Assembly (NCBI GenBank): GCA_016841425.1
Contig: JAENZE010000007.1
Location: 62,001-126,000, forward strand
Length of the DNA stretch: 64,000 bases
Direction: 5' to 3'
From: Syntrophomonas sp.
GTDB taxonomy: Bacteria; Bacillota; Syntrophomonadia; Syntrophomonadales; Syntrophomonadaceae
Position numbers and translations under genes: made by a program. Positions 48,223-55,062 of this stretch are shown one piece after another (positions within the stretch are counted from its first letter, which is position 1; each line of letters starts with the position of its first letter). The notes beneath the pieces are model-generated. The model searched no databases. It was not told the DNA's origin and worked only from the letters and a program-made list of their open reading frames with translations.

Positions 48223-48341
48223 CCACGGGGACAGGGGGGCCACGGGGACAGGTTCCTTGGCCCATTTCTATAATATTATCTGGGCCAAGGAACCTGTCCC
48301 CGTGGTCTGTCCCCGTGGTCCTAAGGAACCTGTCCCCGTGG
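48223..48341. repeat. Cluster of RAYT-linked palindromic repeats (downstream side)
   Basis: The 13-mer CCACGGGGACAGG or its complement occurs at 48223-48235, 48240-48252, 48293-48305 and 48329-48341, and a 12-nt copy at 48307-48318. Positions 48240-48305 form a perfect palindrome with 25-bp arms and a 16-nt loop. The 66 bp, loop included, are identical to those at 49234-49299 on the other side of the transposase gene. Confidence 0.9.
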
Positions 48342-48363: not shown

Positions 48364-49122
48364 TCAAACTCTTTTAATCACACTTCTTGAAATTCCTGTT
48401 AACCTTGCTATCTGCCTTACCGTAACACCATTTATGTTCTTAATTTCCTTTATCACATGATCTCGCTGTTCTTTGTCAAGCCTGGCTATTTCATTAATAT
48501 TTGAGATACCTATTTCATTTAAAAATCTAATTAACTCTTGGTCGGATAAATCCGTCTTTTCGTTATCTTCAAGACATTGATCTTCATTTATTTCATTATT
48601 ATATAATTTAAATAGCAATATTGCTTTTTTTCTATCTATTGAAAACATATCTAGAGCTAAATCAGTATCAGTTACTACGGGAGTATCCAGATATTCTTTA
48701 TAACTGCTCCACCGATATTTCTCGATATCCTCAATTATACCTGCCTTCAGAGGGTTTTGATGAATGTATCTTAAAACTGTAAGGAAATATTCGTCAGTTT
48801 CCACTGCTTCACTTTTAAAACGTTCCTGAAACAGATGACCGCAGCGACCATATTTCTTATTATGCCAGTATACATAGCTGCTACTGATTCTCTTAATGAT
48901 ATTGGATATAGACTCATCAGTCTCCCTCAGCAGTAAATGAATATGGTTCTTCATTAGACAGTAAGCATAAACCTCATACTTACTTATTGGTTTATAATAA
49001 CAAAGAGTCTCGATAATCCTACTATAATCTTGTTCATCCGTAAATACTTTCTGTTTATTAACTCCACGAAGCATTAAGTGGTATATACCGCTGCTGCTTT
49101 TCTTGCGTGCTTGCCTTGACAT
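48364..49122 (-). CDS. REP-associated tyrosine transposase (RAYT, TnpA_REP/IS200-like)
   Basis: 252 aa. The HUH motif is NHIHLLL (His60, His62), and the candidate catalytic Tyr is Y119 in LRYIHQNPLKAG, the hallmark of the Y1/RAYT family. The C-terminus adds a helix-turn-helix (VRQIARLTGISRSVIKRV). Such enzymes nick and move REP palindromes in proteobacteria. The gene has no IS ends of its own, but identical 66-bp palindromes lie on both sides (48240-48305 and 49234-49299). GAGGTGGG precedes the ATG. It looks intact. Confidence 0.88.
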   Translation of the reverse strand: MSRQARKKSSSGIYHLMLRGVNKQKVFTDEQDYSRIIETLCYYKPISKYEVYAYCLMKNHIHLLLRETDESISNIIKRISSSYVYWHNKKYGRCGHLFQERFKSEAVETDEYFLTVLRYIHQNPLKAGIIEDIEKYRWSSYKEYLDTPVVTDTDLALDMFSIDRKKAILLFKLYNNEINEDQCLEDNEKTDLSDQELIRFLNEIGISNINEIARLDKEQRDHVIKEIKNINGVTVRQIARLTGISRSVIKRV

Positions 49123-49228: not shown

Positions 49229-49304
49229 AAGAACCACGGGGACAGGTTCCTTGGCCCATTTCTATAATATTATCTGGGCCAAGGAACCTGTCCCCGTGGT
49301 TCTT
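49229..49304. repeat. RAYT-linked palindrome (upstream side), 30-bp arms
   Basis: Arms 49229-49258 and 49275-49304 are exact complements with a 16-nt loop. The core 66 bp equal those at 48240-48305; here AAGAA/TTCTT extends the stem. The last bases of the right arm overlap the TAA of the histidine kinase gene (49303-49305). It may therefore also terminate that transcript. Confidence 0.9.
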
Positions 49305-51607: not shown

Positions 51608-52159
51608 ATGAACACGCTAAAGAAATTTATTGCGCTGGGAACCGTGGTAGTGACCATTGGAGTGGTATCTGCAGCAGCTCTGGCAGCATCTGCCTACGAT
51701 AATCCGGCAGAAGCAGTGGCTGGACTAACCGGCAGAACAGTGGAAAGTGTTGTGGCCGAAAGAGCAGAAACAGGCAATACTTATGGTACCATAGCCAATG
51801 AGGCTGGAGTGCTGACTGAATTCCAGGCCCAAATCCTGGAGATGAAAAAGGACCGGCTGAATGCCAGAGTTGAAGCTGGAACTATGACCCAGGAAAGAGC
51901 CGACGCGATCATTGAAGCAGTGGAAGAAAACCAGGCTAATTGTGATGGCACCGGCCAGGCCCGGGTAGGCCAGGCTATGGGCGCTTGCTTCGGCGCTGGA
52001 AGCGGAATGGGCAACGGAGATGGATCCGGTCAATGCTTAGGGGCTGGCAATGGAACCGGTAAAGGCAACGGCTCAGGTCAAGGCCTGGGTGCAGGAGCAG
52101 GCCGCGGTCAGGGCGGCAGCGGTATGGGACTTAGGGATGGTTCCTGCCTCAACCAGTAA
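51608..52159 (+). CDS. Secreted DUF2680 protein with Gly-rich tail
   Basis: 183 aa. A signal peptide (about residues 1-27) is followed by the DUF2680/YckD-like domain (LTGRTVESVVAERAETGNTYGTIA, then VEAGTMTQERADAIIEAVEENQ). After that comes a low-complexity tail rich in Gly, Ser and Asn with Cys. GGAG lies 8 nt before the ATG. It is divergent from the two-component system and ends in a strong terminator. The function of DUF2680 is unknown; envelope-stress-linked secretion is a guess. Confidence 0.85.
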   Translation: MNTLKKFIALGTVVVTIGVVSAAALAASAYDNPAEAVAGLTGRTVESVVAERAETGNTYGTIANEAGVLTEFQAQILEMKKDRLNARVEAGTMTQERADAIIEAVEENQANCDGTGQARVGQAMGACFGAGSGMGNGDGSGQCLGAGNGTGKGNGSGQGLGAGAGRGQGGSGMGLRDGSCLNQ

Positions 52160-52223: not shown

Positions 52224-52292
52224 GCCACGGGGACCGGTTCCTTGACCTATTTTTAAATTTATAGGTCGGGCTAAAGAACCAGTCTCCGTAGC
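52224..52292. repeat. Degenerate RAYT-linked palindrome
   Basis: CCACGGGGACCGGTTCCTTG on the left and AAAGAACCAGTCTCCGTAG on the right match the long palindrome next to the transposase with several changes; the loop is different. It lies 12 bp after the terminator of the DUF2680 gene. An older copy of the family. Confidence 0.7.
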
Positions 52293-52439: not shown

Positions 52440-53552
52440 ATGAAATTCAGCGACCTGTTTATTTTTAATAGGAGAGTTCTAATATTTATCATTATCGGAC
52501 TGGTGCTGGAAGAAATACTGGTATCCAGTTTTATAGCCGGCAAGTTCTCTCATCCGGAAGCCCAAAAGCTGCCGGTTTACGATGAGGCGACCCTGACGCT
52601 CTGGGTTAAACAGGTCAAAAAAGCAGCAGGTTACAAGATTGTAGTTCTGGGTGATTCAGTAGTGCACGGCGATGATGTAGCACATGATGATACTCTGCCC
52701 ATTTACATAGCAAAAGAACTTGGGGAGCTCTGCCCAGAGAAGCAGATCAAGGTTTTTAATATGGGGATGGCGGGAGCATCCCCGGCGGAAGTATACTTTT
52801 TGCTCAATGCTTTAGATGGAACCGGGACGAACCTCATCATATATAACATTAACCTGGGCTGGTTCGGCCGGGAAGAAACGCTGGAACATCAAGCGTTGCT
52901 CCATTTCAATAGACTTAATGACCAGCAGCTCCGGAGTTTAGGTATAGAGCCGCTGGAGTCTGCCCGTAGCCCGGCTGAAGATTGGCTGGAGGATCATCTA
53001 TTCAGTCATTGGCAATTCCTACAGTACCGCCTGCTGTTGAATTACTGGCTTTTTGGTCAGCCCCTGCGGCAGCACGTGGATGAGTTATTCAAAAGCCCAG
53101 GCAGTTCATGGCTGCTTGGAGCTGAAGAAGAGGAGATAGAGAAGTCTGACCCCAGGGCTCCCTGGACCGAAAAAGACTGGGAGGGTAAACTGGATCCAGC
53201 TCAGGGGAGAGTAGGTGATGTATACCTTTCCGAAAATAATGCTCAATGGGTTTTATATCAGATGCTTACCGATCTGGTTAAACGTGAAAATCTGCCCATG
53301 ATTTTCTTTGTGACACCACGCAATTATGAACTGCTGAATCGTTATGATATGGTGGACCAAAACGCTTATGGGGATAACTTAGCTCTGGTTATCGAACAGG
53401 CTGAGGATAATGGTATTCCGGTATTGAATTATGATCAGGCCTTACCCTATGATCTGTTTGTAGATACTATACATCCTCTGGCTGAAGGAAATCAAATTCT
53501 CGCGGATATTCTGGTTAATGATCTAATCAATAAGGGGTATATTAAGAGGTAG
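52440..53552 (+). CDS. SGNH/GDSL-type hydrolase, membrane-anchored (AlgX/DltD-like role)
   Basis: 370 aa. An N-terminal membrane anchor (about residues 12-34) is followed by an SGNH domain: block I VVLGDSVVHGDD (nucleophilic Ser) and block V DTIHPLAEGN (Asp and His). The anchor puts it outside the membrane. The MBOAT gene starts 3 nt after its stop, and a DltX-like gene follows, so it is probably the extracytoplasmic half of an acyl-transfer system. A weak ribosome site (GAGGAAAG) precedes the ATG. Confidence 0.85.
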   Translation: MKFSDLFIFNRRVLIFIIIGLVLEEILVSSFIAGKFSHPEAQKLPVYDEATLTLWVKQVKKAAGYKIVVLGDSVVHGDDVAHDDTLPIYIAKELGELCPEKQIKVFNMGMAGASPAEVYFLLNALDGTGTNLIIYNINLGWFGREETLEHQALLHFNRLNDQQLRSLGIEPLESARSPAEDWLEDHLFSHWQFLQYRLLLNYWLFGQPLRQHVDELFKSPGSSWLLGAEEEEIEKSDPRAPWTEKDWEGKLDPAQGRVGDVYLSENNAQWVLYQMLTDLVKRENLPMIFFVTPRNYELLNRYDMVDQNAYGDNLALVIEQAEDNGIPVLNYDQALPYDLFVDTIHPLAEGNQILADILVNDLINKGYIKR

Positions 53553-53555
53553 CTT

Positions 53556-54752
53556 ATGCTTTTAAACAGCTTATCCTACGCATTGTTCCTAATTATATTA
53601 TTCACAACTTACTGGTTTTTGCTTCCCGCTGGCTGGCGCAGCCAGTTGTTATTGGCAGCTGGTTTTTTCTTACTGCTGTATCTTTTCCCGTCTCACACTG
53701 TTTTAATCTTGCTGGTATCCAGTATAGTTTACCTGGCCGGGGAATTTATGGCCCGTAGTCAGGTTAGAAAAAGAAGTTACATCCTGGCGGGCACTATATC
53801 ATTAGTGCTGGGAATACTTGCTTATTATAAGTATTTGCCGCTGCTAGCCCATACCATCAATTATATCAGCCTGCTAACTGAAACTTCATTACAATTCACC
53901 CCGCCTTCAGCAGCTATTCCGATAGGTATTTCTTTTTTTTCTTTTCGCTTTATTCACTATTTGATTGAGATCAAAAGGGGAAATATTGAAAAGAGATCTT
54001 ATTTTAGTTTTTTACATTACACTTTCTTTTTTCCTATCATAGTGGCCGGCCCAATTGAAAGATACGATCACTTTGCTCCCCTGGAGGAAAATATTCCGGG
54101 GTTTAAATGGGAATATTTAAACCAGGGGATACCCCGAATTTTACTGGGCCTGTTCAAAAAAATAGTGCTGGCTGATTCCCTGTCAATTGCAGCCGTGGGT
54201 CTCAGCAGTCCGGATTTGGATGCAGCAGGTTATCTGCTGGCTATCTATGCTTATACCTTCAAAATTTATTTTGATTTCTCCGGTTATTCCGATATTGCAG
54301 TAGGAACAAGCCGGCTATTCGGATATCGTATAATGGAAAATTTTGATGCTCCTTACCTTCAGAGCAATATATCACTATTTTGGAAAAAGTGGCATATGTC
54401 TCTGACCAGGTGGTTTATGGATTACCTATTCATCCCCCTGGGTGGTAGTCGGGGAACAATGGGCCGGACTATCTTCAATACTTTAATAGTGATGATGATT
54501 ACCGGATTATGGCATGGCGCAGCCTGGCACTTCGTCTTTTGGGGCCTGTATCATGCACTTGGATTGATAGTATTCCGTATATATACTCGTTACATAGCCA
54601 TACATGTGGGTGAAAAGTTCAGGCAATCCAAAATGGCAAAAATCTTTAGCATTGCTCTGACCTTCAATTTCACTGCTCTAGGATGGATTTTCTTTGTTAA
54701 CGGAATCAGGCAGAGCATAAATGTTTTAAGAGTTATTTTTAACCTGGCTTAG
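53556..54752 (+). CDS. MBOAT-family membrane O-acyltransferase (DltB/AlgI-like)
   Basis: 398 aa with about ten helices. The family core FFPIIVAGPIERYDHF, FDFSGYSDIAVGTSRLFGY and the catalytic-type His in GLWHGAAWHFVFWG are present. MBOATs such as DltB and AlgI move acyl groups across the membrane to a surface polymer. AGAGG precedes the ATG, and SGNH is directly upstream. No carrier protein or ligase (DltA, DltC) is near, so the donor may be acyl-CoA or encoded elsewhere. Confidence 0.92.
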   Translation: MLLNSLSYALFLIILFTTYWFLLPAGWRSQLLLAAGFFLLLYLFPSHTVLILLVSSIVYLAGEFMARSQVRKRSYILAGTISLVLGILAYYKYLPLLAHTINYISLLTETSLQFTPPSAAIPIGISFFSFRFIHYLIEIKRGNIEKRSYFSFLHYTFFFPIIVAGPIERYDHFAPLEENIPGFKWEYLNQGIPRILLGLFKKIVLADSLSIAAVGLSSPDLDAAGYLLAIYAYTFKIYFDFSGYSDIAVGTSRLFGYRIMENFDAPYLQSNISLFWKKWHMSLTRWFMDYLFIPLGGSRGTMGRTIFNTLIVMMITGLWHGAAWHFVFWGLYHALGLIVFRIYTRYIAIHVGEKFRQSKMAKIFSIALTFNFTALGWIFFVNGIRQSINVLRVIFNLA

Positions 54753-54921
54753 AATAATTTCCGCGATACTGGAGATAAATTCGGAAGGGAGAAATCTTCT
54801 GCTGTTGTTGAATTTGCGATGTATAGAAATGCAGAAATTCGTAGTATTAAACCATGAATACGCGGCAACTGAAAAATGTGATTCTTAGAGCTATTTAAAT
54901 CTGGGAAAAGGAGATCAAAGC

Positions 54922-55035
54922 ATGAAGGGAGTATATCTGGATTTGCTTCGCGCTGGTATCTGGCTTCTTATAATATCAATGATAATTCTATTTTCCACCG
55001 GGGGATTCTCAGAATTTATTTATAGAGGGTTCTGA
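54922..55035 (+). CDS. DltX-like small membrane protein, 37 aa
   Basis: An ATG follows AAGGAG at 8 nt spacing. One membrane helix (about residues 9-26), a Gly-Gly turn, and the C-terminal FSEFIYRGF. DltX proteins of D-alanylation operons are about 50 aa, have one helix and end in FIYNEF or similar, with the Tyr implicated in acyl transfer by DltB. This frame lies 170 bp after the MBOAT gene, which fits. The match rests on the terminal motif, size and context. Confidence 0.65.
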   Translation: MKGVYLDLLRAGIWLLIISMIILFSTGGFSEFIYRGF

Positions 55036-55037
55036 TG

Positions 55038-55062
55038 GATAGGGGGACAGGTTACCTGCCCC
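55038..55062. repeat. Short GGGGAC-type palindrome before carB
   Basis: GGGGACAGG-TTA-CCTGCCCC forms a small imperfect hairpin, a shortened relative of the RAYT-linked repeats. It lies 3 nt after the stop of the DltX-like gene and may terminate that transcript. Confidence 0.45.

Follow-up and report, generated by a model that had tools for sequence, protein, structure and literature searches.

The window, a stretch of 64,000 nucleotides from a Syntrophomonas sp. contig, carries genes for an SGNH-type acyltransferase and an MBOAT, followed by a frame of only 37 codons. This arrangement raises the question whether the short frame is a genuine gene and, if so, what kind of acylation system the three genes could form without the ligase and the carrier protein of the Dlt pathway.

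The preliminary description of this DNA listed the three frames as SGNH protein, MBOAT and DltX-like micropeptide, and we confirmed them at 52440-53552, 53556-54752 and 54922-55035 on the forward strand, where they form one operon. On the basis of its sequence, a weak Pfam match and an AF2 model, the first gene is predicted to encode an SGNH-type acyltransferase of 370 residues with an N-terminal membrane anchor. The Pfam match was to GDSL, with nothing stronger, and the predicted catalytic residues are the GDS at positions 71-73, D342 and H345. The AF2 model (mean pLDDT 61.6, pTM 0.59) retrieved DltD proteins as its top nine matches in the PDB, albeit with modest TM-scores near 0.4. The MBOAT gene starts 3 nt past the SGNH stop codon and codes for 398 residues matching PF03062 (2e-27); judged from its tail length, the protein is a core of DltB length, lacking the pair of C-terminal helices that PatA and AlgI have in addition. 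His280 (codon 54393-54395), the equivalent of DltB His289, lies in an invariant column, and the predicted catalytic His320 (codon 54513-54515), the equivalent of DltB His336, is a histidine in all 65 MBOATs aligned. The parts required of an MBOAT-SGNH pathway, namely adjoining genes with the catalytic His and the Ser-Asp-His residues, are therefore present, and this MBOAT is the only one in the genome (3.58 Mb, 100% complete).

The surroundings of the operon contain repeats. Copies resembling GGGACAGGTTCCTTGRCCC were found at 48245-48300, 49239-49294, 52230-52248 and 55044-55062, with none expected by chance. Four of the copies are arranged as inverted pairs around a Y1_Tnp (IS200-like, RAYT-like) transposase gene (48364-49122); one further copy lies directly upstream of the SGNH gene and another directly downstream of the micropeptide. 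The gene for a DUF2680 protein with a Gly-rich tail (51608-52159) lies divergent to the genes of a paired histidine kinase and response regulator.

The short frame encodes MKGVYLDLLRAGIWLLIISMIILFSTGGFSEFIYRGF. As described before, it has a ribosome-binding site (AAGGAG, 54908-54913, 8 nt upstream of the ATG), one predicted membrane helix, which corresponds to a single strongly hydrophobic 17-mer, and the C-terminus FIYRGF (55015-55032, with the Tyr34 codon at 55021-55023), which we regard as a putative acyl-shuttle motif. The peptide matched no Pfam family, PF12459 included; this family was weakly matched by only 3 of 11 relatives (best E 0.02). In three related loci, L002, L003 and L004, a separate peptide is encoded just 3' of the MBOAT and ends in FIYRSF, FIYTNF and FIYRNF, respectively. 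In order to follow up the proposed search for FIYxxF peptides beside MBOAT/SGNH pairs in Bacillota, peptide profiles were searched against 63 class-level and 398 phylum-level genomes. The combination of a short MBOAT, an SGNH protein and a separate FIYxxF peptide of 36-54 residues, hereafter called the split type, was found at 25 loci in 24 Bacillota genomes from at least eight families; this tally includes L002 and G172, the latter found via the DltB model, and L003 and L004 correspond to contigs of two genomes already counted, G073 and G059, respectively. The SGNH gene adjoins the MBOAT gene in all split loci having enough sequence, and its product has the GDS and DxxH motifs in nearly all of them; the few exceptions are either truncated or escape the simple motif search. 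Most of the micropeptides are preceded by an SD-like site, and the gap between MBOAT and micropeptide ranges from a short overlap up to 375 nt.

Two observations that would count against the micropeptide had been named in advance, a terminal motif not conserved in homologous loci and frameshifts in close relatives. F32, I33, Y34 and F37 turned out to be invariant across 22 distinct micropeptides, the FIYxxF terminus being their best-conserved part, and the finding survived the test for frameshifts. The motif also exceeds chance, since 62 F[IL]YxxF-stop frames were detected in the 1.14 Mb of DNA examined and all except three were MBOAT C-termini, micropeptides or DltX. Between the window and L002, the micropeptide shows 8, 2 and 20 changes at codon positions 1, 2 and 3, with 16 codons changed synonymously and 9 non-synonymously, and its constraint is at least equal to that of both larger genes. 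This codon pattern indicates that the micropeptide is under purifying selection. As far as sequence data can tell, the 37-residue membrane peptide is a real, conserved third component of a cell-surface acylation machine, its role therein being predicted.

The MBOATs of such loci differ from those carrying the motif themselves. All 24 complete short MBOATs in the tree set have a separate peptide and lack an FxYxxF of their own; they stop 15-25 residues past a conserved Phe, and this tail contains no hydrophobic segment. The 30 long MBOATs examined continue for 79-139 residues past this Phe, mostly with two hydrophobic segments, and each ends in an FxYxxF of its own, borne by extra helices; no separate FIYxxF peptide was seen downstream of any of the 30. 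Four genomes (G005, G130, G205 and G267) encode one split-type and one fused-type MBOAT each, and distant relatives from Bacteroidota, Fibrobacterota and Pseudomonadota have FIYFQF or a similar motif fused to the MBOAT. Profile comparison relates the micropeptide to DltX (E 3.5e-7) as well as to the C-terminal helix of the fused MBOATs (E 2.9e-9). The fused PatA/AlgI form was not found in the window, where the motif is on a separate gene.

We considered whether the peptide could be the C-terminal remnant of a decayed fused gene, detached by an insertion or a frameshift. The spacer of 169 nt behind the window MBOAT (54753-54921), compared to 15 nt in L002, the closest relative, would agree with such a break, and so would the lack of an MBOAT in four genomes of the same genus (G018-G021), which makes the module patchy within the genus. 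However, the separate frame is kept in 25 loci and in most of them has a ribosome site of its own, it is under purifying selection, and the additional helix of the fused MBOATs is missing from the window MBOAT rather than interrupted. A broken gene is thus a highly improbable origin of the peptide. A mobile repeat was also considered for the 169-nt spacer and rejected, as the spacer is present in a single copy in the genome and has no plasmid match.

A further question was whether the three genes represent a divergent Dlt D-alanylation system whose ligase and carrier come from other parts of the genome, encoded by genes that are shared or were not recognised. Such a system would account for the DltB length of the MBOAT, whose only sequence matches in the PDB are DltB, for the resemblance of the SGNH model to DltD and for the relation of the micropeptide profile to DltX. 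On the other hand, the DltC and DltA models had no match in the window genome, and among 23 split-type genomes none had DltC and none had DltA above the cut-off (560 bits), the best DltA-model scores reaching at most 279 bits and coming from other AMP-binding enzymes. In the same phylum sample, all 11 true dlt genomes, defined as those with DltB above the cut-off, possessed DltC and matched DltA strongly. The DltA match adjoins DltB in 10 of these 11; in the eleventh, G286, DltB lies at a contig end, and DltA and DltC are located together on a different contig. The reported absence of ligase and carrier therefore extends to the whole window genome and to the 23 split-type genomes. A DltX-like peptide was seen at 7 of the 11 dlt loci. 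Two dlt operons have the DltX-like peptide after dltD instead of before dltA (L144:8742-8864 and L145:7086-7298).

The MBOAT sequence itself also argues against D-alanylation by a hidden Dlt pathway. DltC docks on helix HC of DltB via Met302, Val305, Ile306 and Met309 (PMC11035591). In the alignment, the positions of Met302 and Val305 are read as Ile and Gly within an IPLGG(S/N)R segment in both split and fused MBOATs, and in the window protein, IPLGGSR (residues 293-299, 54432-54452) replaces the docking helix. This loss of the DltC-docking residues supports the earlier guess of a differing acyl donor. At 11 diagnostic columns the split MBOATs side with the fused ones against DltB, and under the thresholds used there was no column with the opposite pattern. 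With 195 bits, the window MBOAT stays below the 375-bit cut-off of the DltB model and, by sequence, it groups with the fused AlgI/PatA-type MBOATs, outside the DltB clade. Taken together, we regard a divergent D-alanylation system as quite unlikely. The locus shares with Dlt a short MBOAT, a separate single-span microprotein ending in FIYxxF and an SGNH partner whose model resembles DltD most, but it differs in the absence of DltA, DltC and the docking residues and in gene order, the split-type peptide usually following the MBOAT whereas DltX precedes dltA. Its label as Dlt-type thus holds for the presumed shared mechanism, including the separate FxYxxF microprotein, but not for the class. With PatA-PatB and AlgI-type systems it has in common that it is carrier-free, the SGNH partner, the FxYxxF motif and the IPLGG[SN]R class residues of the MBOAT, and it differs from them in that motif and helix have a gene to themselves and no additional C-terminal helices are present on the MBOAT.

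With acetyl-CoA as donor, PatA acetylates the Tyr in the FxYxxF at its own C-terminus, and PatB takes the acetyl group from there; the same acyl-Tyr relay has been described for DltB-DltX-DltD (PMC12148441). Since the trio has the conserved parts of this relay (His residues in the MBOAT, a single-span peptide bearing the Tyr motif, and Ser-Asp-His in the SGNH protein), we infer from the PatA/PatB precedent an acyl-CoA-fed relay via Tyr34. Accordingly worded, the trio is probably an envelope-polymer O-acyltransferase that uses the Dlt/PatAB relay in split form and without a carrier protein. The MBOAT would take the acyl group on the cytoplasmic side, most likely acetyl from acetyl-CoA, and, aided by His320, would load it onto Tyr34; the C-terminus of the microprotein would be placed outside the cell, where the MBOAT tunnel opens. 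The FIYxxF tail may then deliver the acyl group to the membrane-anchored SGNH protein, at Ser73, and the SGNH protein would pass it on to a hydroxyl group on a polysaccharide that is either secreted or part of the wall. Acetyl appears to be the likeliest acyl group, and acetyl-CoA is suggested as donor by the class residues of the MBOAT and the absent carrier. In a read-through model of the L002 MBOAT and peptide, the peptide part was of low confidence (pLDDT 42-60).

The peptide might instead only stabilise or assemble the MBOAT-SGNH pair while another residue acts as the shuttle. A single-span helix could serve assembly, and the catalytic role is a prediction. We consider this unlikely, because conservation of the peptide is highest at FIYxxF, because PatA is acylated on the Tyr of this very motif, and because the short MBOAT does not contain a further copy.

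Regarding the polymer acylated by the putative relay, no consistent partner gene was found among the scanned neighbours of the split loci, and no polymer can be named from them. S-layer (SLH) or polysaccharide genes as constant neighbours were rejected, as SLH occurred in 3 of 69 scanned neighbours and glycosyltransferases were few. The copy in G059 (L043) adjoins a UDP-sugar dehydrogenase and glycosyltransferases, which is compatible with a polysaccharide substrate; the neighbourhoods are otherwise inconstant.

In a maximum-likelihood tree of the 65 MBOATs, DltB formed a single clade apart from the others, and the split sequences fell into two groups and one lone sequence between DltB and the main fused clade of 29 MBOATs; one long-branch fused sequence stood apart. 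AU tests rejected neither a single clade for all split (p 0.056) nor one for all fused MBOATs (p 0.073). On this unrooted tree it is possible, as a tentative reading, that the carrier-free split trio was ancestral, that fusion of the DltX-like microprotein to the MBOAT gave rise to AlgI/PatA and that a branch gaining DltA and DltC led to Dlt.

MBOAT/SGNH pathways other than Dlt were stated in 2025 to lack a DltX-like microprotein (PMC12148441). The split trio is an exception to this statement, and no contrary report was found among the papers covered by our literature search. The finding implies a stand-alone acyl-shuttle peptide tied neither to D-alanylation nor to a carrier protein, and it adds a family of membrane proteins of 36-54 residues that annotation could miss. 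As a natural three-part system, the trio would allow Tyr loading and hand-over to the SGNH enzyme to be studied with separately made components, and the split loci are candidates for the step that links Dlt and AlgI/PatA in evolution.
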